A stretch of 64,000 nucleotides of DNA from Streptomyces sp. SLBN-118 (GTDB taxonomy: Bacteria; Actinomycetota; Actinomycetes; Streptomycetales; Streptomycetaceae): assembly GCF_006715635.1 (NCBI RefSeq), contig NZ_VFNP01000002.1, positions 1,426,001 to 1,490,000 of the forward strand, written 5' to 3'. A program made the position numbers and the translations under genes. Below the pieces are notes generated by a model. That model searched no databases and had not been told where the DNA came from. It was given only the letters and a program-made list of their open reading frames with translations. Shown in pieces: positions 14,923-30,060 of this stretch. How positions within the stretch are numbered: position 1 is the first letter of the stretch; each line of letters opens with the position of its first letter.

Positions 14923-16008
14923 TCAGCCGATCTCGGCGCCGAACGTGGACAGCGCCTCCGTCACCGGCTGGAAGAAGGTCTCACCGCCCGCTGAGCAGTC
15001 GCCGCTGCCGCCCGAGGTCAGCCCGATCGCGGTATCGCCCGCGAAGAGCGAGCCGCCGCTGTCGCCCGGCTCGGCGCAGACCGTGGTCTGGATGAGGCCG
15101 TTGACGATGTCGCCGTTGCCGTAGTTCACGGTGGCGTCGAGCCCGGTGACCTCGCCGTCGTGCACCTGGGTGGTCGAGCCGCTGCGGGTCACCTTCATGC
15201 CGACGGTGGCGTCACCGGCCTTGGTGATGGCCTGCGTGCTGCCGTTGTAGAGGTTCACCTCGCTGGGGTGCTCCACCTCAGCGGTGTACTTGACCAGGCC
15301 GAAGTCGTTGTCGGGGAAGCTGGACTCCGCGTTCTGGCCGATCTCCTTGCCGCTGCTGTCGGACCAGGTGGAGATCGACTCGGTGCAGTGCCCGGCCGTG
15401 ATGAAGAACGGCTGGCCGTCCTTGACGACGTTGAACCCGAGCGAGCAGCGGCCGCTGCCCCCGGTGATCGCGTCTCCGCCCGCGATGAAGGGCTTGAACT
15501 CCCCCGCGGACTTCTTCAGTTCGGCCTTGCCGCCCAGGGCCTTGACGACCTGGCTGAGCTTGGTCCACTGCGCGCCCTTGACCGTACGGTCGGCGGTGAC
15601 GACGACCCTGTTGGTGACGGGGTCGACGGCCCACGAGGTGCCGGGGATGGTCGCCTTGGTGGTGAGGGTCTGCCGAGCGGACTTCAGCTCGGCGAGCGTG
15701 TTCTCAACAATCCGGGCCTTGCCGCCCGCCTTGCGTACCGACTTGGCCGCCTTCTCGTCGAGGACGTTGACGACGAGCGCCTTGGTGTCGGCGTCGTAGT
15801 ACGTGCCCGCCGCGTCGCCCCCCAGAGTCTTGCTCAGGGTGGAGGCAAGATTTCCGGCCGCAACCGCCGACAGAGACTTGACGTCGAACTGCTCGGTGTC
15901 GTCACTGGCGTTCGCACTCTGGAAGGTGACGCCGGCGGCCACCAGGGCGACAACCGCGCCGCCCGCTATCGCCGCTTTTCTCTTGGGTATCCGTCGGTGC
16001 TTCAACAT
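14923..16008 (-). CDS. Secreted S1 serine protease, streptogrisin family
   Basis: Chymotrypsin-fold extracellular protease made as a pre-pro-enzyme of 361 residues. The ATG at 16008 follows AGGAGG. A basic signal peptide ends near QSANA. An alpha-lytic-type pro-domain of about 135 residues follows, with VDPVTNRVVVTAD typical of its end. The mature enzyme begins near [19 protein letters not shown]. Catalytic His is in ITAGHCTES, Asp in DNDFGLVKY and Ser in [10 protein letters not shown], and paired cysteines flank them. It resembles streptogrisin B, encoded elsewhere in this window, but its pro-domain is longer. The two are probably diverged paralogues. Confidence 0.95.
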   Translation of the reverse strand: MLKHRRIPKRKAAIAGGAVVALVAAGVTFQSANASDDTEQFDVKSLSAVAAGNLASTLSKTLGGDAAGTYYDADTKALVVNVLDEKAAKSVRKAGGKARIVENTLAELKSARQTLTTKATIPGTSWAVDPVTNRVVVTADRTVKGAQWTKLSQVVKALGGKAELKKSAGEFKPFIAGGDAITGGSGRCSLGFNVVKDGQPFFITAGHCTESISTWSDSSGKEIGQNAESSFPDNDFGLVKYTAEVEHPSEVNLYNGSTQAITKAGDATVGMKVTRSGSTTQVHDGEVTGLDATVNYGNGDIVNGLIQTTVCAEPGDSGGSLFAGDTAIGLTSGGSGDCSAGGETFFQPVTEALSTFGAEIG

Positions 16009-16220
16009 CGACCTCCTGTGGGGCCGTGTCGGGGCAGTGGGGTGCCGGGACACGGAGGATGGGGCGCCCACTATTCCGATACCGACTGGTAGCACACAAG
16101 GTCGACTTCAGGACGGGCACACGACAACACAGGTGCGTTCACTGTGTCTTCACAGGAAGCGTTCGCACAGGGCGGTTCCGATGTGCGAACACCGCATGCA
16201 ACCGGCCCATGGGCGGGGCG

Positions 16221-16299
16221 TAAGGACTGGGAGTGTCTTCAAAGTAGCGTCGTCCGCCCGCCAGGCAGACGGGACTTTGAAGACACGACCTAGTCCTGT
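16221..16299. repeat. Short inverted-repeat element (MITE-like or terminator)
   Basis: Perfect 13-bp arms GTGTCTTCAAAGT (16233-16245) and ACTTTGAAGACAC (16274-16286) extend outward imperfectly to GGACT/AGTCC, giving an element of about 75 bp. The outer right part contains the TAG stop of the band-7 gene. It contains no coding capacity. It could be a terminator for that gene or a miniature transposon remnant; AT-rich arms are unusual for this genome. Confidence 0.55.
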
Positions 16300-17117
16300 C
16301 CTGTTCCCGACTGCGCAGAGCCGGAATCCGACGGTGACAGCGGCGGCTGGGGCGCCGGCTGCTGGGCGCGTTCGAGGAAGCGCAACAGCTCCACCGGGAA
16401 CGGCAGCACCAGCGTGGAGTTCTTCTCCGCCGCGACGGCCACCACGGTCTGCAACAGCCGGAGTTGAAGGGCGGCGGGCTGGTCCGACATCACTCCGGCC
16501 GCCTCGGCCAGCTTCTTGGACGCCTGCAGCTCCGCGTCGGCGTTGATGACCCTCGCCCGCCGCTCACGGTCCGCCTCGGCCTGCCGCGCCATCGAGCGCT
16601 TCATCGTCTCGGGCAGGGACACGTCCTTGATCTCCACCCGGTCGATCTGCACACCCCATCCCATGGCCGGACTGTCGATCATCAACTCCAGCCCCTGGTT
16701 GAGCTTTTCGCGGTTCGACAGCAGATCGTCCAGATCGCTCTTGCCGATGATCGACCGCAGCGAGGTCTGCGCCATCTGCGAGACCGCGAAACGGTAGTCC
16801 TCCACCTGCACGATGGCCTCGGAGGCGTCCACGACCTTGAAGTAGATGACCGCGTCGACACGCACCGTCACGTTGTCCCTGGTGATGCCGTCCTGCGCGG
16901 GCACCGGCATCGTCACGATCTGCATGTTGACTTTACGGAGCCGGTCCACGAACGGGAGTATGAGCGTGAAGCCCGGGCCGCGCACGGAGGATCGGACCCT
17001 TCCGAGCCGGAAGACCACACCTCGTTCGTACTGCTTCACGACACGGGCCGCCGCCATCAGACAGACGACGCCCGCGGACGCGACGGTCGCTGCGGCCGCC
17101 ACCAGTGCCTCTACCAT
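16290..17117 (-). CDS. SPFH/band 7 (slipin-like) membrane protein
   Basis: Membrane-anchored stomatin/slipin-like protein of 275 residues. One N-terminal hydrophobic segment (residues 2-25) is followed by the band-7 domain: VVKQYERGVVFRLGRVR, GPGFTLILPFVDRLRKVNMQ, TRDNVTVRVDAVIYFKVVD, and the late VEIKDVSLPETMKRSMARQAEADRERRARVI helix. The C-terminus is a Pro/Gln/Ser-rich tail. These proteins form oligomeric scaffolds in membranes, often with an NfeD partner, but no nfeD is adjacent. The stop codon falls inside the short inverted-repeat element, so the last residues may reflect insertion of that element. The ATG at 17117 is the start that keeps a plain membrane anchor. Confidence 0.9.
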   Translation of the reverse strand: MVEALVAAAATVASAGVVCLMAAARVVKQYERGVVFRLGRVRSSVRGPGFTLILPFVDRLRKVNMQIVTMPVPAQDGITRDNVTVRVDAVIYFKVVDASEAIVQVEDYRFAVSQMAQTSLRSIIGKSDLDDLLSNREKLNQGLELMIDSPAMGWGVQIDRVEIKDVSLPETMKRSMARQAEADRERRARVINADAELQASKKLAEAAGVMSDQPAALQLRLLQTVVAVAAEKNSTLVLPFPVELLRFLERAQQPAPQPPLSPSDSGSAQSGTGQD

Positions 17118-17290
17118 CACGGCCCCCTGGGGTGCGATGTGGACGCGCCTGCACGTTCCTCTTCGACGGTACCCCCAAATGACGTCAAAGGGAGTCCCGG
17201 TCGGGCCCCTTGATGGGTAATCATCGAACGGGCGGGGAATGCCTGGCTCATTCTGTTTGCACAGGGCACATACACGGAGGGGGACGCGGA

Positions 17291-18160
17291 GTGCTGCGAC
17301 GTCGGGTGCGCGCAAAGGACGGGCGGCATCTGATGGTGGAACGGCTGGGGGATCCGCGCGGCAGACCCGTCTTCCTGCTGCACGGCACCCCGGGCAGCCG
17401 TCTCGGCCCGGCGCCGCGCGGCATGGTCCTGTACCAGCGCGGCACCCAGCTGATCGCGTACGACCGTCCCGGCTACGGCGGTTCGGACCGGCTCGCGGGC
17501 CGCAGCGTCGCCGATGTGGCCGAGGACGTACTGGCGATCGCCGACGAGCTCGGCCTTGACCGGTTCGCCGTGGTGGGCCGCTCGGGCGGCGCGCCCCACG
17601 CACTGGCGTGCGCGGCCCTGATGCCGGAACGGATCACCCGTACCGCCGCGCTGGTGACGCTCGCGCCCAGGGACGCGGACGGGCTCGACTGGTTCGAGGG
17701 GATGGCCGCGTCGAACGTCCTGGAGTACACCACGGCGTCCGACGACCCGGCGGGGCTGGTCCAGCGGTTCATCGTGAGGTCCGCGGAGATCAGGAAGGAC
17801 CCGATCCGGCTCCTCGACGATCTGCGCCGGGAGCTGACGGACTCCGACCGGATGGTGGTGGCGGACGCGGGTGTCAGGTCGATGCTGCTTCGCAACTACC
17901 AGGAGGCACTGCGTACGTCGGCGTACGGGTGGATCGACGACGCGCTCGCCTTCTGCAGCCCGTGGGGGTTCGACCCGGCGGACATCAAGGGTCCCGTGAT
18001 GCTGTGGCACGGCGAGAAGGACGTGTTCTCGCCGGTGGGGCACTCGAGGTGGCTGGCGCAGCGGATTCCGGGGGCGACCGCGGTGCTCGAACCGGCGGCG
18101 GCGCACTTTGATGCGCTGCATGCGTTGCCGCGGGTGCTGACGTGGCTGCTGGAGACCTGA
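17291..18160 (+). CDS. Alpha/beta hydrolase fold protein
   Basis: A 289-residue cytoplasmic alpha/beta hydrolase. The GTG at 17291 follows GGAGGGGGA at suitable spacing; the open frame extends upstream without a ribosome site. Visible are oxyanion motif LLHGTPGSRLG, IAYDRPGYGGSDR (common to proline iminopeptidase/haloperoxidase-like members), nucleophile elbow VGRSGGAPHALA, a WHGEKDVFSP segment supplying the catalytic Asp, and His in AAHFDALHALPRVL. No signal peptide. The substrate cannot be told from the sequence. Confidence 0.85.
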   Translation: MLRRRVRAKDGRHLMVERLGDPRGRPVFLLHGTPGSRLGPAPRGMVLYQRGTQLIAYDRPGYGGSDRLAGRSVADVAEDVLAIADELGLDRFAVVGRSGGAPHALACAALMPERITRTAALVTLAPRDADGLDWFEGMAASNVLEYTTASDDPAGLVQRFIVRSAEIRKDPIRLLDDLRRELTDSDRMVVADAGVRSMLLRNYQEALRTSAYGWIDDALAFCSPWGFDPADIKGPVMLWHGEKDVFSPVGHSRWLAQRIPGATAVLEPAAAHFDALHALPRVLTWLLET

Positions 18161-18189
18161 CCTACGGCCTCCAGCCGCATGACCTCGAA

Positions 18190-18224
18190 CGCCGGACGGG
18201 CTGAAGAATTCAGCCCGTCCGGCG
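18190..18224. terminator. Bidirectional hairpin terminator
   Basis: Perfect 16-bp arms starting CGCCGGACGGGCTGAA close on a GAA triloop. It separates the convergent alpha/beta hydrolase and fxsT genes. Confidence 0.9.
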
Positions 18225-18254
18225 CACGAGGCACGGGTCCGGGGCGAAGCCCCG

Positions 18255-21200
18255 TCAGACCGCCAGAGGCTCCAGGTCGCGGTGGACGCGGCGTTCGTCG
18301 CGGGCGATTCGGGTCAGCGCATGGTCGTCGCCGAGCAGCCGCTGCAGCTCCTCCACCGTCTCCGTCCTCAGCCGCACCGACTCGTCCTTGCGGCCGAGGA
18401 GGCCGAGCGTGACGGACATGTTGGACGCGATGCCGAGCACCTCCGGATGGTGCTGCCCCAGCACCTCCCGCAGCCGGGTCACCGTCCGCTGTTCGATCTC
18501 CAGCGCCTCCTCCAGACCGCCCAGATCGGCAAGGGCGTTGGCAAGGTTGATCGTGCCGTACAGGGCGTGCGGATGGCTTTCGCCCAGAACCTCCCGCATC
18601 GTCCTGGACACCTTCAGCAGCACCGCCTCCGCCGCCTCGGCATCGCCGCAGCCCCACAGGAAGATGCCGAGGTTGTTGCTGGCGGCGAGGGTGTACGGAT
18701 GCCGTTCGCCCGGCACCTTCCGGTACTGGTCGACGACCTCCTGCGCCAGGTCCCGCGCGGCCACCGGCTCGCCGGCCGCGAACAGGTCGGCCGCCAGGTT
18801 CAGGTCGCAGGCGAGCGAGTCCGGGTTGGCCGAGGTGTACTTGGCCCGATAGCGGTTGCGTGTGGCCGTGGTCAGCCGGCGCGCGTCCTCCAGCCTGCCT
18901 GCCCTGCGCAGCGAGACGGCGAGGCTCTTGGCCGCGGCCAGCGTGCCGGGGAAGGTCCGGCCCAGTTGCTCCTTGTAGAGCTCGTACGTCCGGCTGAGCA
19001 GCGAGACGGAGTCCTCGTACCGTCCGACCTCACGCAGGTCGCGCGCCAGGTTCATCGCCGAGGACAGGGTGTACGGATGCTCCGTGCCAAGGACTTCGGT
19101 GCGCCGGTCGAAGACCTCCTGGTCGATCTCGCGCGCCCTGGCGTACTGACCGACCATGCGCATGTTCAGCGCGAGGTTGTTGGCGGCGGCGAGCGTACGC
19201 GGATGGGACTCGTGGAAGATCTGGCTGAATCCCTCGTGTGCCTCGGTGGCCAGTTCCATCGCCCTGCCGTACTGGCCGAGCGTGCCCAGGTCCATCGCGA
19301 GACCGCTGGTGGTCATGTACGTATGCGGATGGGACAGGCCCAGAACCGCCTGCTGACGCTCCAGTGTGACCTCGTCCAGCTCCTTGGCCTCCACATAACG
19401 CCCTTGCGAACGAAGGATGTTGGAGAGGTGGAAGCGCAGATACAGATACTGGAGATCGTCGTTGCCGAGCATCTCGCGCCAGCTCTCGCGCAGTTCTTCG
19501 GCGAGCGTGTACGCGGTGTTCAGATCGCCGCGCTTCCACAGGTAGCGCACCCGGTCGATCAGCAGCCGCCGGGTCTCCGGCTCCTTGCAGAACCGGGCCT
19601 CGGAGGTGCCCAGATGCGGCCAGATGGTGGCGAACCGCGGCCAGGTCTCGGGGTTGTCGATCGGCTCGTCGTCGTCGGGCCGGGCGCCGGCGAGGACGCG
19701 GTGGACGGCGTGCCGTGCGTCCTGCTGCTCCTGCTCGGTCAGCTGGGAGCGGATGACCGCCTGCACAAGCCGGTGGACCTGGATGGAGTTGGAGACCTGG
19801 TCGACCTTGGCCAGCGCGAACCGGCCGATCTCGCGGATGACCCGGCCGAGAACGAGCTTCTCCTGGAGGGAGGCGTCGTACGGCTTGAGTGCGTCGATCA
19901 TCTCCTTGCTGTAGAGCAGGTTCGCGGAAATCGGCTCGGGTGCGAAGAACGCACAGAGCTGGAGCAGGCGCACCGCGGCCGGTGAGCGTTCCTTGAGCCG
20001 CTCGATGGAGACGTTCCAGGTCGCGGCGACCGGCTCGGGGTAACCGGCGGGCTGGTTGAGCGCGAGCACGCTCGCGGCCTGGTCCTTGAGCTGCTCCAGA
20101 TACTCGGCGACCGGCGTGGCCGTCTCCGCGATCCACGCCGCGGCCTGCTCGACGGCGAGCGGCAGATCCCCGACGGCGGTGGCGACCTGGTCGGCATCCT
20201 CGACGGTCAGTCCGCGGGCGCGCCGCTGGAGGTGCTCGATGGACTCCTCGCGCAGGAACACGTCGACGGGCAGCGCGTCCCCGTACTGCGACCAGGTCTG
20301 GTTCCTGGAGGTGACGAGGATGTGCCCGGGTCCCTGGGGCGGGAAGAACTGCTTCAGCCGCTCCGGGTCGTCGGCGTTGTCGAAGACCAGCAGCCAGCGT
20401 GAGGACGGCACTCCGCGCCGCAGCAGATCGATGGCCTCCTGGGAGGCGGCCGCCATGTCCTCGCCGCCCTGGGCACCGAGGCGTACGGCGAGTTCGGCGA
20501 GGCCCGCGACCACGTCGTCGGGCTGCTCGGAGGAGATCCACCACACCAGGTCGTAGTCCGCCATGAAGCGGTGGACGTACTCCAGGGCGACCTGGGTCTT
20601 GCCGACGCCGCCGAGCCCGTACAGCGTCTGCGGCTGGGGCAGTACCGCGGCCACCGCCATGCCGCCGCCGAGCTGGTCGCGCATCCGCTCGAGCACCACC
20701 GAGCGTCCGGTGAAACCGGGGTTGCGGGGCGGCGCGTTCCAGATCTTGGGGACCGTGCCGGGGAATCGCGGTCCCGGCGATGCGCTGTCGGGCAGCTGGA
20801 CCGGGCGGTCGAGTGCGCGCAGCAGCGCGGTGGTGGCGTGCACCTCGTCGAGCCGGAAGAGATCGACCGGGTTGCGGTCGATGTAGGGGGTGGTGAGTCT
20901 GACGTCCCCGACCCGGATCGCCATGAGGTGGTGCCGGCCTCCGCCGGGGTCCTCGGCCGCGGCGCGCGACCAGACCTCCACCGCCCGGGCGGACTTGAGA
21001 TAGGCGCTGGACAGGAGCACGACGGTGCGCGCGGCGTTCTCGGCGGCGAGTTCGGCCGCGTCCGCCGGGTCCCGCTCGGCCGAGACGTCGCGCGGCACGA
21101 CCCGGAACCCGGCCCGCGAGAGCTGGTACTCGACCCAGTCGGCCCACATGCGGTTCTCGGCCACATAGCTGAGGTAGAGGTCGGCGGGCAGGGCGGGGCG

Positions 21201-22196
21201 GCGGCGGGTGAAGGCGTCCCTGATGCGGAGCCTGACCTCTTCGCCGACCGCGGGCATCGAGGTGATCCGCTGTTCGGTGACGACCGAGGTGAGCCGTTCG
21301 AAGGCGGAGAGCAGGGAGTTGGTCAGGCCGGCTTCGTCGCCGAAGGTGGCCAGGGTCTCCTCGTAGGCGTAGTAGGGCCGGTACGGAATCTCCACCGCGC
21401 CCCAGTAGGCGGTGAGGTCCTCGCCCGCGAGCCCGCCCGGGAACCGGTCGAACTTCAGCCGGGCCAGGGCCCGTCCGGCGTCCGCCTTCTCCTTCTCGCC
21501 CTCGTCGATCCGCATCGGGACCGGGTAGATCTTGATGCCGCGGCCGCCGTAGCGCTCGTCGATCTGCCGCGCCACCGCTGCCGCGCCGTCGATGGACTGG
21601 TCGCTGAGGGTGAAGCAGTCCACGAGCACGTCGGGCAGATGGACGGTGCAGATGTCGGCGATGTCGCTGAGGCCGGTGCGGCTGTCGATGAGGACGTAGT
21701 CGTAGTTGGCCTTCATGTCCTCGCGCAGCGCGTCGAAGAAGTGGCCACCGCCGAGACGGTCGTAGAAGTTGTCCCAGTCGAAGGTGGAGACGGTCGCGGA
21801 GTACTCGCGGTTCTGCTTGCCCGCCGAGACGAAGTCGAGCGTGCCCCCGTCGGGGAACTCCCAGCCCAGGTTCTCGGGGGTGAGGGAGACGGCGTGCGGC
21901 TGGATACGCGCGTAGTCACGGTGCCAGTCGTCGCGGCGCGGCTCGGGGCTGGTCGCCGCCCAGGCGTACTCGGTGATCAGATCGATGACCCCGGTGGTGG
22001 CACCGAGCGTGGACGGGTCGAGGAAGGGATGGAAGAAGCGGTGCAGGCCGGGGGCTTCGAGATCCCAGTCGACCGCCAGGACCCGCTTGCCGTTCGCGGC
22101 GAGGATCCAGGCCACGTTGGCCAGGGCCATCGTGCGACCCGTACCTCCCTTGTAGGAATAGAAGGTGACGATGCGCCCGTCACGACTGGCTGTCAT
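18255..22196 (-). CDS. fxsT: FxSxx-COOH system TPR protein FxsT (ParA-like, TIR-like, NB-ARC, TPR)
   Basis: Very large (1313 residues) multidomain signalling protein. Domains in order: a ParA/MinD-like ATPase with deviant P-loop YKGGTGRTMALANVAW (residues about 15-30) and DWDLEAPGLHRFF; a TIR-like domain near 365-520 (DLYLSYVAENRMWADWVEYQ); a STAND NB-ARC NTPase with P-loop GLGGVGKTQVALEYVHRF near 530 and Walker B RWLLVFDNAD near 605; then about ten tetratricopeptide repeats to the C-terminus with the recurrent pattern HPxTLxxxxNLAxxL. This is the architecture of the tetratricopeptide protein of FxSxx-COOH loci. I chose ATG 22196, overlapping fxsC by 17 bp and implying coupling; ATG 22211 is an alternative. 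The molecular role is not established. Confidence 0.88.
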   Translation of the reverse strand: MTASRDGRIVTFYSYKGGTGRTMALANVAWILAANGKRVLAVDWDLEAPGLHRFFHPFLDPSTLGATTGVIDLITEYAWAATSPEPRRDDWHRDYARIQPHAVSLTPENLGWEFPDGGTLDFVSAGKQNREYSATVSTFDWDNFYDRLGGGHFFDALREDMKANYDYVLIDSRTGLSDIADICTVHLPDVLVDCFTLSDQSIDGAAAVARQIDERYGGRGIKIYPVPMRIDEGEKEKADAGRALARLKFDRFPGGLAGEDLTAYWGAVEIPYRPYYAYEETLATFGDEAGLTNSLLSAFERLTSVVTEQRITSMPAVGEEVRLRIRDAFTRRRPALPADLYLSYVAENRMWADWVEYQLSRAGFRVVPRDVSAERDPADAAELAAENAARTVVLLSSAYLKSARAVEVWSRAAAEDPGGGRHHLMAIRVGDVRLTTPYIDRNPVDLFRLDEVHATTALLRALDRPVQLPDSASPGPRFPGTVPKIWNAPPRNPGFTGRSVVLERMRDQLGGGMAVAAVLPQPQTLYGLGGVGKTQVALEYVHRFMADYDLVWWISSEQPDDVVAGLAELAVRLGAQGGEDMAAASQEAIDLLRRGVPSSRWLLVFDNADDPERLKQFFPPQGPGHILVTSRNQTWSQYGDALPVDVFLREESIEHLQRRARGLTVEDADQVATAVGDLPLAVEQAAAWIAETATPVAEYLEQLKDQAASVLALNQPAGYPEPVAATWNVSIERLKERSPAAVRLLQLCAFFAPEPISANLLYSKEMIDALKPYDASLQEKLVLGRVIREIGRFALAKVDQVSNSIQVHRLVQAVIRSQLTEQEQQDARHAVHRVLAGARPDDDEPIDNPETWPRFATIWPHLGTSEARFCKEPETRRLLIDRVRYLWKRGDLNTAYTLAEELRESWREMLGNDDLQYLYLRFHLSNILRSQGRYVEAKELDEVTLERQQAVLGLSHPHTYMTTSGLAMDLGTLGQYGRAMELATEAHEGFSQIFHESHPRTLAAANNLALNMRMVGQYARAREIDQEVFDRRTEVLGTEHPYTLSSAMNLARDLREVGRYEDSVSLLSRTYELYKEQLGRTFPGTLAAAKSLAVSLRRAGRLEDARRLTTATRNRYRAKYTSANPDSLACDLNLAADLFAAGEPVAARDLAQEVVDQYRKVPGERHPYTLAASNNLGIFLWGCGDAEAAEAVLLKVSRTMREVLGESHPHALYGTINLANALADLGGLEEALEIEQRTVTRLREVLGQHHPEVLGIASNMSVTLGLLGRKDESVRLRTETVEELQRLLGDDHALTRIARDERRVHRDLEPLAV

Positions 22197-23520
22197 CCGT
22201 GTCCTCCGCATCGGGGGCGATTCCACGCGTGTTCGGGACGTAGTGAGTGGTGCCGTACTCGGCCATCGGGCCGCGCAGCCGGGGCCGCTCGGACGAGCGG
22301 GCTCCGGGGGGCGGCGGCGCCGCGGGCGGGAAGACCTCGGCGTGCCGCAGATACTCCTGGGCCGCCGACTCCACCACCTGGGGCAGGATCTGGCCGAAGG
22401 CCTCCATGCTGAGCACTCCTCTGGCGGCTGCCCGGCTGGCCGCCCGGCCGTGGCGCAGCTGATGCGGCATGGTCCGCTCCAGTTTCTCGGCCAACTCGGC
22501 CTCGGTGGTCCGGCTCTGCGGGTCGTCACGGTTCCAGGGGACGATGACGCTCACCCAGGGGCGCGGCTCCGCGTCGAAGGCGGCGAGGCGCTGACGGCGG
22601 TCCTCGTCCTCCAGGGCCCAGCGGTCCACGAGAAGTATCTCGGGCCGGGTGGGCGGCTGGCCGGCGTCGGGCGGCGACTCGTGGTCGAACGAGGAGACCG
22701 TCGCCTGGTAGTTGAGCGAGCGCACCAGGTCCTGGGCGACATACGCCAACGGCCTGGCGGAGTCCGGGTGATAGGGATTCCAGTCCTGGGACTGTTTGCC
22801 GTAGTACTCGGGGGCCCGGCCTTCGGGCAGGTCGTGGCTGGTCGGCGCGGCAACCGTCACATGCATCGGACGGGGACCGCCGCTGGGCTTGCCGAAGGCG
22901 CTGGGCGCCTGCCGGTAGTCCACCGGGCTGCCGGAGCCGACGCGCGTAGTGTCGGCCACGCTGACGATGCGTTTGGCGAGTTCATAGACGGCAGCCTCGT
23001 ACTCCTCTGCGAATATCCGGAGTTTGATCAGTCCGTAGAGCCCGTCGGTGACATAGCGGTCGCCGAAGGCGCGGTGGTTGAACTGCAACCGCTCGGCGGG
23101 GCCCGGCAGTTGCTCCGGCGGCATGGGCACCCACAGGGCGGGCACGATCGCCTCGGCGGGTCTGTTGCTCTTCGCCTGGTGGTAGATCGCCCGCTGGGCG
23201 AAGGCGTACCACTCCTTGCCGCACATCTCACTGGCGAAATAGCGCGGCGAGAAGAGCGGGACGAACACCCGGCAGGTGGCCAGAACTTCACCCAGCCGCT
23301 CCGACCAGCCCTCGCCGGAACGGATCTCGCGGTCCATGAAACCGGCCGGCGCACCGGCCGGCAGATCGGTCATGGCCATCACATGGCCGCACAGATCGCG
23401 GAAGAGCCGCTCCACCCACATGTCCGGGTCCGGGCCCCCAGCCCCGTACCTCGGCGTATGCGCATAACTCAAGAAGAAGTACGGCCGATGATCCGCCGCT
23501 CGCTGCGCTGAATCCGACAC
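22180..23520 (-). CDS. fxsC: TIR-like protein FxsC
   Basis: A 446-residue protein with a GTG start at 23520. Its N-terminal half is TIR-like: PYFFLSYAHTPRYG opens the first strand, followed by GFMDREIRSGEGWSERLGEVLATCRVFVPLFSPRYFASEMCGKEWYAF, the TIR alpha-B to alpha-D region. The C-terminal half contains a second Rossmann-like segment (EILLVDRWALEDEDRRQRL, then WVSVIVPWNRDDPQSR). This matches the FxsC family of FxSxx-COOH loci. Whether it has NAD hydrolase activity is unknown. A candidate acidic residue lies within the RSGEGW/GKEW region, but assignment needs structure. It overlaps fxsT downstream and follows the acetyltransferase gene after 112 bp. Confidence 0.88.
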   Translation of the reverse strand: MSDSAQRAADHRPYFFLSYAHTPRYGAGGPDPDMWVERLFRDLCGHVMAMTDLPAGAPAGFMDREIRSGEGWSERLGEVLATCRVFVPLFSPRYFASEMCGKEWYAFAQRAIYHQAKSNRPAEAIVPALWVPMPPEQLPGPAERLQFNHRAFGDRYVTDGLYGLIKLRIFAEEYEAAVYELAKRIVSVADTTRVGSGSPVDYRQAPSAFGKPSGGPRPMHVTVAAPTSHDLPEGRAPEYYGKQSQDWNPYHPDSARPLAYVAQDLVRSLNYQATVSSFDHESPPDAGQPPTRPEILLVDRWALEDEDRRQRLAAFDAEPRPWVSVIVPWNRDDPQSRTTEAELAEKLERTMPHQLRHGRAASRAAARGVLSMEAFGQILPQVVESAAQEYLRHAEVFPPAAPPPPGARSSERPRLRGPMAEYGTTHYVPNTRGIAPDAEDTDDSQS

Positions 23521-23632
23521 ACGCCCCCCGCCCTGCCTGAACGCCCGACCTCACACCCAGCATCGATGAGAGATGCGAGCGAATTAATCATTCCGGAGCC
23601 CGACACACTCCATCCCCCCGACGTTCAGTCAA

Positions 23633-24466
23633 TCAACACCGCTTTTCGGTCATCCAGCGCTCCGCATGGTCGACCGCTTCCCTGATCGAGAAGAACCTTG
23701 CGGGCCTTCCTCCCAGTTGTCCCTTCTGTTCCATACCCCAGGCGAAGGCGGCGCCGATCGCACCAAAATCACTGTCGTCCAGTTCGATGTCTTCGTACTC
23801 CGTCCATTCCCTACCCCCACCAGGTCGCGACACCACACAACGGTAGGTTCGCGCAGGAGCACGGGTCTTGTATTCGGCGAGATGGAATGCGGTGCAGACA
23901 TCGAAATCCACGTTGATCATCAACACCTGGGCCCGCGCCCGGTACAGGGCTCCGAGCGGTGAGTCCTCGCCGAGATGCGAGGTCAGCGGATGTACGGCGA
24001 GCAATTCGGCGGCCCGCCGTCCCACCGCCGCGAATGAGGTCTGCGGATGGGCACTGCGCACGGCCCCCTCGGCGGTCCGCACGGACTCGGCCAACCGGCC
24101 CATCCCCTGACTGGGCGTCGTGGCGGCGTCGAAGGCCGGCATGTCCGCCCGGAAGGCCGCCGACTGCTCGGGTGTCATACCGCGCACACGAGCCCGGTAC
24201 GAGGGTGAGGTGTCGGAGTTGTCGGCGGTGAAGGCGGGCACGACGAGCGTGCCGTCATCTCCCAGCACCTCGAGGAGCGCGTCACGGAGGGATTCCGCTT
24301 CCAGTCCGGTGGCGCGCAGGGAGGCATGGACGAGCAGTGTCATACCGTCCTGTACGCCCAGCCCCCGTAACGACCGCCTCAGCCCTCGCGGGGAAGGCGC
24401 CGGTCCGTAGCGCGTCAGTCCTCGCTGGGAGCGCGTCAGTGCGCTTCTTGGCCCTTCCTCACCCAC
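23633..24466 (-). CDS. AAC(3)-family N-acetyltransferase in the fxs operon
   Basis: A 277-residue member of the antibiotic NAT/AAC(3) fold. Family signatures are MTLLVHASLRATG near residue 42, LGDDGTLVVPAFTADNSD near 70, and a TPSQGMGRLAESVRTAEGAVRSAHPQTSFAAVG segment holding the conserved SxHPxxSxxAxG core. HLGEDSPLGALYR and a DVCTAFHLAEY segment follow. The GTG start at 24466 overlaps the fxsB stop by 8 bp, so the two are coupled. Members of this fold include aminoglycoside 3-N-acetyltransferases, but its position inside the fxs operon argues for a role in peptide tailoring or self-protection rather than classical resistance. That role is inference. Confidence 0.88.
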   Translation of the reverse strand: MGEEGPRSALTRSQRGLTRYGPAPSPRGLRRSLRGLGVQDGMTLLVHASLRATGLEAESLRDALLEVLGDDGTLVVPAFTADNSDTSPSYRARVRGMTPEQSAAFRADMPAFDAATTPSQGMGRLAESVRTAEGAVRSAHPQTSFAAVGRRAAELLAVHPLTSHLGEDSPLGALYRARAQVLMINVDFDVCTAFHLAEYKTRAPARTYRCVVSRPGGGREWTEYEDIELDDSDFGAIGAAFAWGMEQKGQLGGRPARFFSIREAVDHAERWMTEKRC

Positions 24467-26666
24467 GGCCGGCCTCTTTCCACAGTTCGTCCAGCAGGCG
24501 CTGCCCGGCGACGGTCAGCTCCGCCGCCCGCCCCAGGGTCTCCAGCGCGCGCTTGGCCTCCTCGGCCAGGTCCGGCTCGAAGGCCGCGAGCCCCACACGC
24601 TCGTAGGCCCCGGCCAGCAGCTCGGACACCACGACCGGTTCGTCCTGCCAGGGCGCGGGGTGGCGCCACCAGCCGTCCTGCGCGTACAGATCCGTGACGT
24701 CGAGCAGGGCGTGCAGCCGGGCTCGCCTGAATCCGCGCAGCAGCGCCGGCGCGAGCTGTTCGGGCGTGGCGGGCAGGGCGATACCGAGTGCCCCGAAGCC
24801 GTACCGCCGCCCCGACGGCTCGCCCGCGGCCAGCGGGGTCAGGGTGGTCAGACAGTCCGCCGCGTCGGAAGCCTGTTCCGGTGCGGCCTGCCGCAGCAGG
24901 GCCCATGCCTCCCCCAGCCGCGCGGCCCACAAGGCCGCCTCCCGTGAGCCGAGCCGCTCCCTGACCGGGACTCCGAAGCAGTCGCGGTAGGGGTCGAGAT
25001 CGTCGAGCCGCAGGACGGGGAGGCCTTCGGCGGCGAGTGTGCGGACGGGCCGCCAGTCGCCGCTCTCCTCGGCCGTGTGTACATGGCGCGGCTCGCGGCC
25101 GTCCACGCGTACCAGGAACCCGTTGACCGCCGGCCGCACCTCGGCCTCGCCCCGCCGGTCCTGGCCCGTCAGCCGTAGCTCGCCGAGCGTGGGAAGCCGG
25201 AGCCTGCCGTCCTCGTAGCGCACCCGGACGGGGACGTCGAGCCCGCCCCGTACCACCGCGGCGGCGAGATACGCGGGCAGCCCGAGAGCGAGATCGGCCG
25301 CCTCGGGCAGCCCGTCACGCAGTGCGGCCAGGCACCCCTGGAGCCAGGTGTAGGTGTAGGGATGGCCGTAGACCGTGTCGAGGACGTCGGAGCGTTCCTC
25401 CAGCGCGGACGCCAGTTCCCAGGCCTCGTCCCAGGTTTCGCCGCCCCGCCCGTCGAGTTCCGCATGGACGTCGGCGAGCAGCATGCGCGTCAGGTCCTGG
25501 TGCTCGGCCATCAGGACGCCGGGATCCGGAACCGCGAGCGGGACCGTGGACGCGGCCGTGCGCTGCTCGATGCCCCGGATCAGTGCCTCCAGGTCGGTGC
25601 AGTACACGGAGGTGTTGTCGAAGTCATTGCGGGAGCTGTAGCGGTGGGTGTAGAGCCCGCCGCCGCACGACCGTACGACGGGACACTGCCGGCAGGCCGC
25701 GCCGACTCCCGCGAGCCCCAGCTGACGCGCCCTCACCCCTGGGTGGGCCGCGACATCGTCGAGGGGGTGGGTGAAGACGTCGAATCCGGTCGCGGCCGCG
25801 CCTTCGTAGGCGCTCTTGAGCGAGTCGACCTGCTCCAGGGTGCCGTCGGTTTCCACGACGACGAGGTCGGTGGGGGCGAGGCCGAGGGATTCGGTGAGGC
25901 TGGGGCCGCCGCTGAGGGTGGAGAGCACGGACTCGAAGAGCCGTACCGGCACCTTCCTGCCCTGCTGGTTCCAGCGGTCGAAGATCGCCAGGATCCAGTC
26001 GGCGTAGGCGGTGGGTGAGCCGTCGGGGCGGGCCGGCGGGTCGTCCCACGTGCTGTGCGGCAGGAGGAGGTCGATCCGCGGGGGCTCCAGCTCGGTGAGC
26101 GCGTCATACACGGCGATCGGGTCGTTGGCCACGTCGATCGTGCAGAGAAGACCGAGGTAGAGGTGGCGGTAGCGCTCCTGCCTGAGCAGGTCCACGGCTC
26201 TGAGGACCAGGGGGTGGCTGGTGCGCCCGTCCGCGAAGCGGCGATGGCGGTCGTTCGCGGCCTTGTCGCCGTCGAGGGAGATCCCGACCCTGACGTTGTA
26301 CTCGCTGAAGAGGTCGAGGTAGGAGGGACTCAGTTGAAGGCCGTTCGTATGGATACGAAGGTCGAGTCCGGCGACCGGGTCGAGTGCTCTTGTGAGCTCC
26401 TCACAGACGCGTCGCAGTCGTGCGGGCCCCGCCAGAAGAGGCTCCCCTCCGTGCAGGATCACTGACACGGAGGGCAGGGCATGGCTCTTGGCATGCTCGG
26501 CCAGTCGCAGAGCTGTCCAGGAAATCGCTTCGTCAGAGATTGCCTTCGGGCGGGTTCGCCAGCTCTGATCAGCGTGTTCGTAGATATAGCAATGGTCACA
26601 TGCAAGATCACATCTGCTGTGGACCTTCAAAACGATCTCGCGGAATGGGACCAGGGGTCCTGTCAT
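24459..26666 (-). CDS. fxsB: FxsB radical SAM/SPASM cyclophane-forming peptide maturase
   Basis: A 735-residue maturase that acts on FxsA. The radical SAM cluster motif CxxxCxxC is at Cys19, Cys23 and Cys26 (CDLACDHCYIY), with GGEP at 73-76 for SAM binding. A SPASM auxiliary-cluster region has Cys325, Cys328, Cys334 and Cys356. FxsB enzymes of the three-residue cyclophane class join an aromatic ring carbon of Phe to the beta-carbon of the residue two positions on. The C-terminal ~350 residues resemble the HExxH-type domain often fused to this family (FGALGIALPATPEQLAPALL, then ARLHALLDVTDLY), but the metal motif position reads RGFRR (644-648), so it is probably not a metalloenzyme here. It starts 9 bp after fxsA and overlaps the acetyltransferase gene. 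Confidence 0.93.
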   Translation of the reverse strand: MTGPLVPFREIVLKVHSRCDLACDHCYIYEHADQSWRTRPKAISDEAISWTALRLAEHAKSHALPSVSVILHGGEPLLAGPARLRRVCEELTRALDPVAGLDLRIHTNGLQLSPSYLDLFSEYNVRVGISLDGDKAANDRHRRFADGRTSHPLVLRAVDLLRQERYRHLYLGLLCTIDVANDPIAVYDALTELEPPRIDLLLPHSTWDDPPARPDGSPTAYADWILAIFDRWNQQGRKVPVRLFESVLSTLSGGPSLTESLGLAPTDLVVVETDGTLEQVDSLKSAYEGAAATGFDVFTHPLDDVAAHPGVRARQLGLAGVGAACRQCPVVRSCGGGLYTHRYSSRNDFDNTSVYCTDLEALIRGIEQRTAASTVPLAVPDPGVLMAEHQDLTRMLLADVHAELDGRGGETWDEAWELASALEERSDVLDTVYGHPYTYTWLQGCLAALRDGLPEAADLALGLPAYLAAAVVRGGLDVPVRVRYEDGRLRLPTLGELRLTGQDRRGEAEVRPAVNGFLVRVDGREPRHVHTAEESGDWRPVRTLAAEGLPVLRLDDLDPYRDCFGVPVRERLGSREAALWAARLGEAWALLRQAAPEQASDAADCLTTLTPLAAGEPSGRRYGFGALGIALPATPEQLAPALLRGFRRARLHALLDVTDLYAQDGWWRHPAPWQDEPVVVSELLAGAYERVGLAAFEPDLAEEAKRALETLGRAAELTVAGQRLLDELWKEAGRG

Positions 26667-26675
26667 TCCGCCAGT

Positions 26676-26840
26676 CTAGAGCGCCGAGTTGAAGGTGGAT
26701 GCACGCACAGAGCGGTCGGTGGCGGCCGGGAGGACCCGGGCCAGCTTGCTCGCGGCATCGGTGCCACGCACATCGATCTGCGCCAGTGGAACGCGGTTCT
26801 TCTTCGCAGCGGCGAAGGAGGCTGAGGTTTGAAACGTCAT
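26676..26840 (-). CDS. fxsA: FxsA, FxSxx-COOH precursor peptide
   Basis: A 54-residue precursor, MTFQTSASFAAAKKNRVPLA at the N-terminus and ending STFNSAL at the carboxyl end. The terminal F-N-S-A-L (residues 50-54) is an exact FxSxx-COOH motif, the defining feature of this family, and Phe50 to Ser52 is the expected site of a FxsB-made cyclophane. The leader includes PLAQIDVRGTDAASKLARVLP, typical of the FxsA conserved region. The ATG at 26840 is preceded by AAGGA at 8-9 nt. fxsB starts 9 bp downstream and the divergent SLATT gene begins 202 bp away. It is the first gene of fxsA-fxsB-AAC(3)-fxsC-fxsT. Confidence 0.93.
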   Translation of the reverse strand: MTFQTSASFAAAKKNRVPLAQIDVRGTDAASKLARVLPAATDRSVRASTFNSAL

Positions 26841-26947
26841 GGGGGCCGTCCTTGATGGTGTGTCCAGCACAGATACCATGCACCGTTGCGATGCTGGCGG
26901 CACGACTTTACTCTCATGGCCACTCGCAGCAACTCAGCACATGGATA

Positions 26948-26965
26948 CGCAACAAAAGAGTTGCG
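26948..26965. promoter_or_regulatory. Inverted repeat in the fxsA-SLATT divergent region
   Basis: Perfect 6-bp arms CGCAAC and GTTGCG flank AAAAGA. The site is about midway in the 201-bp region that must contain the promoters of both fxsA and the SLATT gene. It is a candidate operator. No regulator gene is adjacent, and no confident -35/-10 pair was identified on either strand. Confidence 0.35.
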
Positions 26966-27041
26966 GCGCATTCTCGCAGGACGGCTCGGAACAAGCCATT
27001 CCGCCTAAAGAGTGAAGACAAAACTGCAGACGGGGGTGCAC

Positions 27042-27974
27042 ATGACCGGTTTTTCCGGCCCACTGCACAGCATGGTCTTCCGTAACAATGATCTGCCGAT
27101 TCTCTACCATCACACGGACTCGATCGCGATCGCGCGCCAGCGTGAGGCTGTGGGCGCCACTCGCTACCAGCTGCTACTGCTCGTGGTGGGTGCCGCCCTC
27201 GCCGCGCTGCCGTCGTCGCTCAAGCTCGGCTCCAGCTTCCAACTCCCCGGAGCGCTCAGCGCGTTGGCATATGCCGGGGTGCTGGTCTTCAGCTATCGCT
27301 CGTCGAGCCGCAAAGCAAAGTCGCATTGGCAACTCAACCGCTCCGCAGCAGAGTTCATCAAATCTCTGTGCTGGCGGTACTCCGTCCACGGAGCGCCGTT
27401 CGACTCGCACTCCACCGACGCCGACGCGTTGTTCACCGTGAGGCTGGAGGAAGGACTGCGGGAGCTCACCAAGGTCGGCTGGGAGGACCCCCGCACTCGG
27501 GTGCCGAAGGTCGCCGCGGGGGAGCTGATCACGACGCCCATGCGGCAATTGAGGGAGAAGACATTCAGCATCCGCAAGGAGACCTATGTGAGGGACCGCC
27601 TCATCGAACAGCGCAACTGGTACCACCGGCGAACGGAGATATCCCGTCGCGCCACCCATCTGTGGTCCGCGTCCATCGGACTGCTCACGATGCTCGCGCT
27701 CTTCCTCGCCCTGCTGAGGACCTTCTCGCTCGCCGGATCGGTCCATCTGGCGGGCTTGTTGTCGGCATCGGCGGCGGCCTGTCTGGCGTGGAGCGAGATC
27801 CGGCGCCATCAACCGCTCATCGCCGCACATTCGCTGGTCGAACAGGACCTTGCGGCGATGCATACGGCGATGGAGACGACGGTGAGTGAGGTGGAGTGGC
27901 CCTCCGCGGTCTACGAGACCGAGCGCATCGTGTCCCCTCAGCACACGGACTGGCTGGTCAGACACCGGAGTTGA
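27042..27974 (+). CDS. SLATT/DUF4231-type membrane protein
   Basis: A 310-residue membrane protein with two pairs of hydrophobic segments: about residues 38-58 and 65-85 near the N-terminus, and about 205-228 and 233-252 in the second half. Each pair is followed by a charged helix (KAKSHWQLNRSAAEFIKSLCWRY; EIRRHQPLIAAHSLVEQDLAAM). This tandem 2TM arrangement with RLIEQRNWYHRRTEISRRATHLW fits the SLATT (DUF4231) superfamily, predicted membrane effectors of nucleotide-signalled conflict systems. I chose the ATG at 27042, which GGGGG precedes, over GTG 27012. It is divergent from fxsA and ends 12 bp from the SLOG gene on the other strand. Effector activity is inferred from the family. Confidence 0.8.
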   Translation: MTGFSGPLHSMVFRNNDLPILYHHTDSIAIARQREAVGATRYQLLLLVVGAALAALPSSLKLGSSFQLPGALSALAYAGVLVFSYRSSSRKAKSHWQLNRSAAEFIKSLCWRYSVHGAPFDSHSTDADALFTVRLEEGLRELTKVGWEDPRTRVPKVAAGELITTPMRQLREKTFSIRKETYVRDRLIEQRNWYHRRTEISRRATHLWSASIGLLTMLALFLALLRTFSLAGSVHLAGLLSASAAACLAWSEIRRHQPLIAAHSLVEQDLAAMHTAMETTVSEVEWPSAVYETERIVSPQHTDWLVRHRS

Positions 27975-27986
27975 AGGCCGCTTCCG

Positions 27987-28475
27987 TCACAGGCGCTCCA
28001 GGCCGTCGCGCCAGATGACTGTGACGGGCTTGCCCCGGTCTCGTGCGTAACGGACGATGTCGCCCGTGCCGCCGAGGCCGCGGGCGGGGTGGCCGTCCCA
28101 GACCGCCAGCAGCCGGTCGCAGTTGTCGGCGATATAGGCGCCCGCCGCGTAATAGGCCTCGTCGGTGGAGTACGGAAAGGCCAGCTGGATCTCACGGCTG
28201 GCAAGGCCTCTGAGGTGCTGGAAGCGGGCCAGCTCCCCCGGGGCGGTGAAGCCGTCCTCGTAGTCCCCGCTGGGAATGACCACGGTCAGCTCAGCCCCGC
28301 AGTCCAGCGCGACGTCGGCGAACAGCTGGTCGGCGCCCGCGGCGAGGCTGGAGAGGGCTTCCATCGAGCCCTGGTGACCGCACAGGACGGCGCGCATTCC
28401 GGCGCGGATATGGCCGTACGCCTCGGGAGGGATGCCTCTGTGGCCGGTCACTCCAATGCGTTTCACTGACCGCAA
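27987..28475 (-). CDS. SLOG-domain protein (predicted nucleotide-binding sensor)
   Basis: A 162-residue single-domain cytoplasmic protein. It has the SLOG/LOG Rossmannoid pattern: RIGVTGHRGIPPEAYGHI at the first strand and loop, GSMEALSSLAAGADQLFADVAL in the middle, and DRLLAVWDGHPARGLGGTGDIVRYARDRGKPV near the C-terminus, the last being the predicted nucleotide-binding loop. SLOG domains are proposed to sense or make nucleotide signals in conflict systems together with SLATT effectors; a SLATT gene is encoded tail to tail 12 bp away. The start is TTG 28475, which AAGGA precedes well, or GTG 28466; I report the first. The ligand is unknown. Confidence 0.8.
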   Translation of the reverse strand: MRSVKRIGVTGHRGIPPEAYGHIRAGMRAVLCGHQGSMEALSSLAAGADQLFADVALDCGAELTVVIPSGDYEDGFTAPGELARFQHLRGLASREIQLAFPYSTDEAYYAAGAYIADNCDRLLAVWDGHPARGLGGTGDIVRYARDRGKPVTVIWRDGLERL

Positions 28476-28529
28476 CCCCCGTCCTTCCCCGCCCGACCGC
28501 TCTCACATCCTCTCAAACCGGGACGCGAG

Positions 28530-28567
28530 GTCGAGCCCCCGTCCTGGTATACGGACGAGGGCTCGAC
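28530..28567. terminator. Hairpin terminator downstream of the streptogrisin B-like gene
   Basis: Arms beginning GTCGAGCCC and ending GGGCTCGAC, with CGTCC/GGACG pairing inside and one mismatch, enclose a 7-nt loop. It lies just beyond the protease stop at 28593. Confidence 0.75.
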
Positions 28568-28592
28568 TGCTGCCGGCTGCACCAGTGGTGCG

Positions 28593-29495
28593 TCAGTAGA
28601 CGCTTACCCCATAGGCGCTGAGCGCTTCGGTGACCGGCTGGAAGAACGTCGTGCCGCCGGAGGAGCAGTTGCCGCTGCCGCCGGACGTCAGGCCGATGGC
28701 CCGGGTTCCGGAGTAGAGCGAGCCGCCGCTGTCGCCCGGTTCGGCGCAGACGTTGGTGCGGATCATGCCGTAGACGATGTCACCGCCGCCGTAGTTGACG
28801 GTGGCGTTCAGCCCGGTGACGGAGCCGCAGTGGATGCCGGTGGTGGAGCCGCGGCGGCAGACGGACATGCCGACGGTCGCGTTGGCCGCGCTGGTGATGT
28901 CCTGGCTGCCGACCGTGCCCGGGTGGCTGAGCGAGGTGTTGGAGTACCTCACGATGCCGTAGTCGTTGCCCGGGAAGCTGGATCCGGCCGTGGGGCCGAT
29001 GCTCGTGGTGCGCGAGGAGTTGGTGTACCAGGGCGGGAAGCCTTCGGTGCAGTGACCGGCGGTCAGGAAGTAGTAGGTGCCGCTGCTGCTGCGGACGTTG
29101 AAGCCCAGGGAACAGCGCCAGCTGGTGGCGTAGATGGCGTCGCCGCCCGAGATGAGCTTGGAGAACTTGCCGGCGGTGCGCTGGATACGTATCGCCCCGG
29201 CGTTGGCTCCGGCTCCCTTCTTGATCTTGGCGATCCCGGCCTGGGAGACGGTGCTGTCGGCCGTGACGACCACGGTGCCGGTCGTCTTGTCGATGAGCCA
29301 GGCGGTGCCTGCCACATCCGCGTCGAGTACGGCGTCGCTCGCGGCACTGAGCTGGTTGGCGCTGAAGGTCTGTGCCTGGGTGGCATTGGCGGCGGGGACG
29401 GCCAGCGCGGCGGCGGTGATCAGGCCGGTGGTGACGGCGAGCAGACGCAAACGTCTCGCCGTGCCACTGAGTGGGGTGGTGCGCTTGATCCTCAC
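28593..29495 (-). CDS. Streptogrisin B-like secreted serine protease
   Basis: Extracellular S1 protease, a 300-residue pre-pro-enzyme. The GTG at 29495 is preceded by GGAGG and matches the length of streptogrisin B precursors. A signal peptide ends PAANA; the pro-region is short (about 76 residues), and the mature protein begins [20 protein letters not shown] as in streptogrisin B. Catalytic His in [10 protein letters not shown], Asp in GNDYGIVRY and Ser in [18 protein letters not shown] are all present, with six cysteines in the mature part. The C-terminus ([15 protein letters not shown]) is essentially that of streptogrisin B from memory. It is a general extracellular protease. A GTGTTCG inverted repeat lies about 85 bp upstream. 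Confidence 0.95.
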
Positions 29496-29576
29496 TTGTC
29501 GTTCCTCCAGAGGGGAATCGGGGGCCCGTTGTGGGGTTCGGGGCCCGTGAGGCGCAGCCATGAAGCACGTGGGGAT

Positions 29577-29595
29577 GTGTTCGATTGCCGAACAC
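29577..29595. promoter_or_regulatory. Inverted repeat upstream of the streptogrisin B-like gene
   Basis: Perfect 7-bp arms GTGTTCG and CGAACAC with a 5-nt spacer. It lies 82 bp upstream of the protease start, where an operator could sit. The rest of the 565-bp stretch 29496-30060 holds no gene that I can support. Confidence 0.35.
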
Positions 29596-30060
29596 GCCAT
29601 GCTCCTGACAAGCGCTGCTCGGGAGTATTCGGTGCGCCAACATCCTGCGCAAGGGTGTCTTTCGGCCGCTCCGCTCGCGCGCGACGTACGGCCCCGTCAG
29701 CTCGGTGGCTGCCGGGGCTGTGCCGTGTGTCCGCCCGTAAGACGGGGCAGCCGCCGGGAAGGTTCCGTTCACCGTCGTACGAGGTCGCGCCGATCTCCTG
29801 GGCGGCCTGCGTGCCGAGGAGACCGGCCGAAGTCCCGTACCGTCCCGGGCTTTTCAGGTGCGGTACCGCCACCAGACGCTCGCCGTGCGGTGCCCGGGCT
29901 CCTGGGAGGGAATCCACGGCCCGCTCCGGGACGAATTCGGCCGGTGAGCGGCTTGTCGTCGGCGGCGGGACGCGTCCTCGCGGGCGGCAGCCTGCGCCAC
30001 CTCGTCGCCGTCTTCGCGCCACGCGCGGGGACGGCCGGAATTCACCCTTCCGCCGCCCGG

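Follow-up and report, generated by a model that had tools for sequence, protein, structure and literature searches.

In the 64,000-nucleotide stretch of Streptomyces sp. SLBN-118 DNA that we analysed (the window), an fxs operon encoding an FxSxx-COOH peptide system lies next to a pair of genes for a SLATT membrane protein and a SLOG protein, and this neighbourhood recurs in the genus above chance. Judging from sequence comparison, the genomic association is solid and the mechanism putative. We give a probability of roughly 40% to the reading that the cassette is one regulated cell-fate circuit, probably an immune one, in which the fxs, SLATT and SLOG proteins act together. The fxs core and its link to biological conflict are in print already and the coupling to SLATT and SLOG is apparently the new part; we found no published report of it in the open literature (supplements and subscription papers might list it), nor a paper there that settles the function of the fxs peptide or of FxsB.

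Profile scans resolved a minus-strand operon of FxsA, FxsB, an AAC(3)-fold protein, FxsC and FxsT, with the SLATT gene divergent from fxsA (Table 1). The locus is an FxSxx-COOH system, with the precursor, FxsB, FxsC and the FxSxx TPR protein all scoring over cut-off. The initial annotation of this DNA had named these parts and their places, and all were found there by profiles, or by AlphaFold2 and Foldseek in the case of SLOG, including the tail-to-tail arrangement of SLATT and SLOG. Its description of the fxs locus as "fused" into a conflict neighbourhood was inaccurate, as the genes are adjacent, not fused. The C-terminus reads FxSAL in 23 of the 24 FxsA sequences in the alignment and FSSSL in the other. 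FxsB carries CxxxCxxC at residue 19, as seen by inspection of the sequence, and an inactivated HExxH extension that matches the lost-HExxH profile NF040587; no HExxH was found when we looked for it in the FxsB sequence, and Pfam and NCBIfam profiles detected no zincin-like metallopeptidase among the other scanned proteins of the block. Matches of FxsB to the viperin models of PADLOC (best 1.3e-9) were read as a shared radical SAM fold. The genome of the window has a second fxs locus (L006), which is without SLATT within 15 kb.

Table 1 Features of the fxs-SLATT-SLOG block and its surroundings, in positions of the window.
Feature	Position	Strand	Basis and remarks
Left border, secreted alpha-lytic-type protease	14923-16095	-	Profile scan; adjoins the right-border gene where the block is absent
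SPFH/Band_7 neighbour	16290-17603		Profile scan
Alpha/beta hydrolase	17210-18160	+	Abhydrolase_1 4e-19; convergent with fxsT
fxsT, ParA-like/TIR/NB-ARC STAND/TPR giant	18255-22196	-	NF040586 1055 bits, cut-off 300; ORF open to 22529
fxsC, TIR protein with CGxEW glutamate E103	22180-23520	-	NF040588 235.7 bits, cut-off 130
AAC(3)-fold acetyltransferase	23633-24466	-	PF02522 244.5 bits
fxsB, predicted radical SAM/SPASM cyclophane maturase	24459-26666	-	TIGR04269 583 bits, cut-off 370
fxsA, FxSxx-COOH precursor	26676-26840	-	54 aa, C-terminus STFNSAL; TIGR04268 42.4 bits, cut-off 28
Conserved non-coding element, fxsA/SLATT divergent intergenic region	26886-26921	.	Model from 8 close relatives
SLATT_3 + SLATT_1 membrane protein (predicted pore-type effector)	27042-27974	+	SLATT_1 126 bits, SLATT_3 125 bits, cut-offs 26.3
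SLOG protein, YpsA-like	27987-28466 (ORF to 28475)	-	Fold comparison; tail to tail with SLATT
Right border, protein with alpha-lytic protease prodomain	28593-29600	-	Profile scan

The SLATT gene, which probably starts at the ATG at 27042, encodes SLATT_3 and SLATT_1 within one protein, and SLATT_1 occurs once in the genome of the window. Two PDB sequence matches of this protein (E ~0.5) were taken as chance. The SLOG protein of the window had no match in Pfam, NCBIfam or PDB-sequence profile searches. Its AlphaFold2 model (58 sequences) reached a pLDDT of 94.3 and a pTM of 0.90, and Foldseek matched the model to YpsA (best, E 1e-8), DprA (1e-7), ShosA and LOG proteins, with the SLOG domain of Thoeris ThsA with 3'cADPR at rank 45. 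These fold matches identify the protein as a SLOG and confirm, at the level of the predicted model, a YpsA-like SLOG Rossmannoid fold, which it has in common with the YpsA/DprA-like structures 2nx2, 3uqz and 8zva at less than 20% identity. Translation of SLOG probably begins at the GTG at 28466, because most relatives among the matches listed are 159 aa long. In the passages of PMC9503650 that deal with these families, SLATT is predicted to be a membrane effector regulated by ADPr derivatives, and the YpsA-like SLOG clade is said to include members that sense cADPR.

The operon encodes two TIR proteins, FxsC and FxsT. Glutamate E103 in the CGxEW motif of FxsC was invariant in 42/42 aligned sequences, while one of the 25 rows of an earlier alignment (L203) had Gln at this position. 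The FxsC profile pairs E103 with the CLME glutamate of the flax L6/L7 TIR (E 0.027), and we take this residue to be catalytic in L6. A PDB sequence search with the single FxsC sequence returned no match; the top fold match of the FxsC model was the RUN1 TIR (E 6e-4, target TM 0.45), and a further one was a PDB entry titled RUN1 E100A mutant bound to NAD. FxsT, which probably starts near 22196 and not at the ORF end at 22529, is composed of a ParA-like AAA domain (KGGVGR/KGGTGR), TIR_2, NB-ARC and TPR. Its TIR shows no conserved Glu at the FxsC-type position: the FxsT of the window has a Glu one position off, and relatives have Asp, Thr or another residue there. Because FxsC keeps the glutamate and the TIR of FxsT does not, we infer that FxsC is the candidate TIR enzyme and FxsT a candidate scaffold. 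PADLOC, run on five proteins, matched its phage-defence-candidate model PDC-M28B to the ParA-like region of FxsT (E 1.7e-23), which lends slight support to a defence reading; FxsC, SLATT and SLOG had no match, and no Thoeris model was hit.

In order to compare neighbourhoods, we used 150 genomes of the genus of the window and counted only FxsC and SLATT_3 matches over cut-off, leaving out weaker matches to FxsC in 6 and to SLATT_3 in 4 further genomes. FxsC was found 75 times in 53/150 genomes and SLATT_3 48 times in 47 genomes, and 39 of the 48 SLATT_3 genes lay within 6 kb of FxsC: 31 were upstream of it on the opposite strand, and 8 were downstream and co-oriented with it. Both genes were present in 43 genomes, FxsC only in 10, SLATT only in 4 and neither in 93 (Fisher p = 3e-23, kinship ignored). 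A search with SLOG only, from which the best 80 of at least 510 confirmed stretches were kept (all 80 from Streptomyces, and overlapping with the loci of the genus genomes, hence not independent samples), showed SLATT at 80/80 loci and on the opposite strand in 80/80, with FxsB at 75, FxsC at 70 and FxsT at 68 by bit-score thresholds; the AAC(3) gene was detected at 35. Among the loci longer than 20 kb in this best 80 of at least 510 (n=63), 59 had SLATT with FxsB, FxsC and FxsT, one had SLATT with FxsB only and three had SLATT without fxs. The association of SLATT and SLOG with fxs above chance, for which the initial annotation had suggested such a comparison, was therefore upheld. The pair is an optional partner of fxs, outside its core, because 36/75 FxsC genes in these 150 genomes have no SLATT within 15 kb, which implies that fxs can do without these two genes or uses other effectors.

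Shared ancestry at one chromosomal site, where the SLATT, SLOG and fxs genes travel as a block, accounts for much of the signal in the genus. We examined 18 genomes without over-cut-off FxsC at the right-border gene, 8 of which were uninformative. The block was wholly missing in 6/18, with the border genes as neighbours ~240-530 bp apart, and a single gene lay between the border genes in 2/18; one stretch (L235) carried a scar in which the end of FxsT abuts the end of SLOG, and one (L230) retained FxsT alone. No SLATT of the window type was found in the 18 stretches. As the two flanking protease-type genes adjoin each other where the block is missing, they are chromosomal borders, and they were rejected as FxsA-processing enzymes.

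The pairing is also kept in diverged loci of the genus, namely L069 and L082-L084 (FxsB 48-49%, SLATT 45-47%) and L086 (FxsC 29%), where we looked for the border genes of the window and did not find them. The link of SLATT-SLOG with fxs was likewise seen in L191 and L192, the latter with SLATT after AAC3. In a second arrangement (arrangement II, L087-L094, 8/8) the fxs operon lies in inverted orientation, with the hydrolase on one side and SLATT on the other, so that SLATT comes directly after FxsT and is co-oriented with it (aligned gap 37-86 bp). For a tree of FxsT, 59/69 candidate rows passed thresholds, 36 from loci with both genes, 3 with SLOG only and 20 with none. The label "both" required 8 changes on this tree, of which well-supported branches enforce at least 5, whereas shuffled labels needed 18.6 on average; the tree was a quick one with several long branches, and its loci were partly picked for having the pair. 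The SLATT-SLOG label is clustered on the FxsT tree, yet it was gained or lost several times.

Outside Streptomyces, the fxs link is weaker. In a 345-genome sample of the class, over-cut-off SLATT_3 lay within 10 kb of over-cut-off FxsC in 11/18 genomes that have it, and outside the genus it did so in 1/7 (G440); another genome, G465, has a sub-threshold FxsC-like gene near SLATT_3. In a second family, represented by 130 genomes around G440, SLOG was present in 75 genomes, over-cut-off FxsC in 33 and both within 6 kb in 8. Several gene orders were seen in this family. Three loci (L187, L208 and L209) have the co-directional order SLOG-SLATT-FxsB-(AAC3)-FxsC-FxsT, though no AAC3 was found in L187, and L213 has SLATT and SLOG divergent from fxs. 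SLOG adjoins fxs with SLATT absent in L210-L212, and L207 has SLOG plus SLATT fragments. At seven SLOG loci of the second family away from FxsC (L214-L220), neither fxs nor SLATT was seen.

A conserved non-coding element in the divergent region between fxsA and SLATT bears on whether the two sides are regulated together. An extra gene, membrane-like by eye, separates SLATT from fxsA in some loci (relatives in 19/173 loci, in overlapping sets), and in two of these, L068 and L079, one copy of the element lies before SLATT and another before fxsA. In L095, which has SLATT-SLOG and no local fxs, the element precedes SLATT with 18.6 bits, against a maximum of 12.7 in ten 20-kb shuffles. The element was not found in L070, L072, L073, arrangement II or the diverged loci. 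It points to shared control of fxsA and SLATT, which is suggestive only, because the model derives from 8 close relatives and the element is missing elsewhere, so that it is local to part of the clade of the window. In L081, a second copy lies in the gap between SLOG and SLATT.

An alternative explanation, which we consider unlikely, is that SLATT and SLOG form a two-gene defence module of their own, which uses the same insertion hotspot as fxs and hitchhikes in defence islands with no joint function. The many fxs loci of the genus without SLATT would agree with this, as would the frequency in the second family of related SLOGs without fxs, and the loci at which SLATT-SLOG stands without a local fxs operon, that is L095 and, with full flanks, L108, L133 and L135. 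At these four loci, the pair can outlive the local fxs operon; the AAC3 gene is kept in L108 and L135, and fragments of FxsB and of the TIR of FxsT remain in L133. Two more loci, L113 and L184, were counted as lacking fxs but end at a contig edge and are uninformative; at the edge of L113, FxsA and the beginning of FxsB are still visible. However, the genomes of L108, L133 and L135 all have over-cut-off FxsC outside the stretch examined (3/3). In the genus, 9/48 SLATT_3 genes have no FxsC nearby, and among these, those of G139 and G028 are on separate contigs of fragmented assemblies that hold FxsC, and in G057 FxsC is ~470 kb from SLATT. The link is retained where loci have diverged, in more than one gene order and in the second family, and this, together with the element that precedes both SLATT and fxsA in L068 and L079, also argues against hitchhiking.

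The initial annotation had overlooked the alpha/beta hydrolase gene convergent with fxsT. Relatives of this protein (53-91% identity) adjoin FxsT, or FxsA in arrangement II, and are kept in fxs loci with and without SLATT, also in other families; a search of the loci that have diverged furthest, among them L086, L191 and L192, found none. An ORF at 17117-18121 (-) was discarded as a shadow of the hydrolase on the opposite strand.

In the joint circuit that we favour, FxsB would staple the C-terminus of FxsA. Because no transporter or exporter was found among the scanned proteins in 16096-28592, the modified peptide would most likely act inside the producer, where it may set or trigger the STAND protein FxsT. 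FxsT could then serve as a scaffold which, on sensing an insult, would assemble FxsC into an NAD-consuming or signal-making complex. SLOG would bind or clear the NAD-derived nucleotide, and the signal would open the double-SLATT protein, permeabilising the membrane and stopping the cell; the hydrolase may process either FxsA or the signal. A narrower version, which we regard as possible, if doubtful, would make the cassette a peptide-gated, Thoeris-like abortive system: the stapled peptide would belong to a TIR-STAND immune complex as its internal ligand, lock or trigger, the standalone SLOG would read the NAD-derived signal of that complex, and the double-SLATT pore would execute it.

The same parts could instead serve development or the response to envelope stress in multicellular actinobacteria and not immunity, TIR, STAND and SLOG being ordinary signalling parts. 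This is also improbable in our view: the patchy but settled chromosomal presence of FxsC in the genus, the SPFH/Band_7 neighbour and the absence of mobile-element proteins among those scanned are compatible with it, whereas a block that is present or missing as a unit, with an effector pair gained or lost several times, resembles an accessory conflict system. It is quite unlikely that the peptide, once stapled, is exported as a kin signal or toxin with SLATT-SLOG as self-protection or receiver arm, as suggested by a RiPP precursor with its maturase, a membrane protein divergent from fxsA and protease-type genes on the flanks of the site, given that the scanned block proteins include no exporter and that those flanking genes are chromosomal borders.

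Comparison with known systems places the locus close to, and partly beyond, what has been described. In the FxSxx passages of Kaur 2020 (PMC7159879), the peptide systems are described as having TIR-AP-ATPase-TPR proteins and a MinD/ParA-like domain, and a role as toxin or signal is proposed for the peptide. The locus of the window resembles the standalone peptide-processing systems of those passages in having FxsA, FxsB and an AP-ATPase with TIR, TPR and MinD/ParA-like parts. Unlike them, it adds SLATT, SLOG and the alpha/beta hydrolase, and whereas their core is described there as a zincin peptidase, the FxsB of the window is without HExxH; the SLATT passages of the same paper concern GAP1 GTPase systems. 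Thoeris, as outlined in the relevant part of PMC11204291, couples a TIR protein (ThsB) to a ThsA of SIR2-SLOG or TM-macro type, pairing TIR with SLOG or with a membrane effector. The window would share with it a candidate TIR enzyme, a SLOG-fold partner and the logic of a membrane effector, but its SLOG is standalone, it also encodes a RiPP and a STAND protein, and no SIR2 or macro domain was found in the proteins scanned. The firmicute-phage TIR-SLATT neighbourhoods in the section of PMC9503650 devoted to them, as in the window, combine a TIR gene with a SLATT membrane gene; that section mentions HTH or zincin genes and, unlike the window, no RiPP, STAND or SLOG.

The proposal in the initial annotation that the locus serves defence or conflict thus gains from the repeated occurrence of SLATT and SLOG beside fxs, and loses from the optional nature of the pair in the genus and from the weaker link outside it. 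The SLATT-SLOG partner, conserved and possibly co-regulated, makes the idea of the peptide as toxin or signal a testable chain that would run from peptide through STAND, TIR, nucleotide and SLOG to a membrane effector. If this is true, the cassette would be an immune-type circuit with a ribosomal modified peptide as a working part.

The partner of SLOG may not be the same in every fxs locus: L212 carries SLOG without SLATT, and the product of the gene adjoining SLOG there has a RyR domain and matches TrkA_N weakly; it is possibly another membrane effector replacing SLATT. Where both genes are present, their spacing can vary. SLOG and SLATT lie approximately 4 kb apart in loci L112 and L113, and in L112 this stretch encodes a DUF6415 protein. 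The SLOG-SLATT gap of L081 is unusually long and contains a second copy of the conserved intergenic element. In L068, L070, L079 and 16 other loci, the gap between SLATT and fxsA holds a protein of approximately 236–260 aa (19 matches in all, fragments among them), which appeared membrane-like by eye and had no Pfam match.

At the fxsT side of the block, the alpha/beta hydrolase is kept in fxs loci both with and without SLATT, and is a candidate enzyme for processing FxsA or a signal.

Coordinates of features in the window and in compared fxs loci
Feature	Locus	Coordinates	Strand	Position
SPFH/Band_7 protein	window	16290-17603	-	between left border protease and hydrolase
Alpha/beta hydrolase	window	17210-18160	+	adjoins fxsT
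RyR-domain protein	L212	11591-13970		adjoins SLOG
Second intergenic element	L081	6613-6639		SLOG-SLATT gap
FxsT kept alone	L230	6653-10579		between both border genes
Deletion scar	L235	14141-14437		SLOG fragment abutting FxsT end

Another fxs locus of the same genome, L006 (at ~993 kb on contig C2), lacks SLATT and SLOG; its FxsB retains the HExxH motif, which is lost in the FxsB of the window.

FxsT is the sole block gene present in L230, with no match to FxsB, FxsC, SLATT or SLOG alongside it. In L235, a SLOG fragment is directly abutted by the end of FxsT, and this scar is a vestige of block loss.
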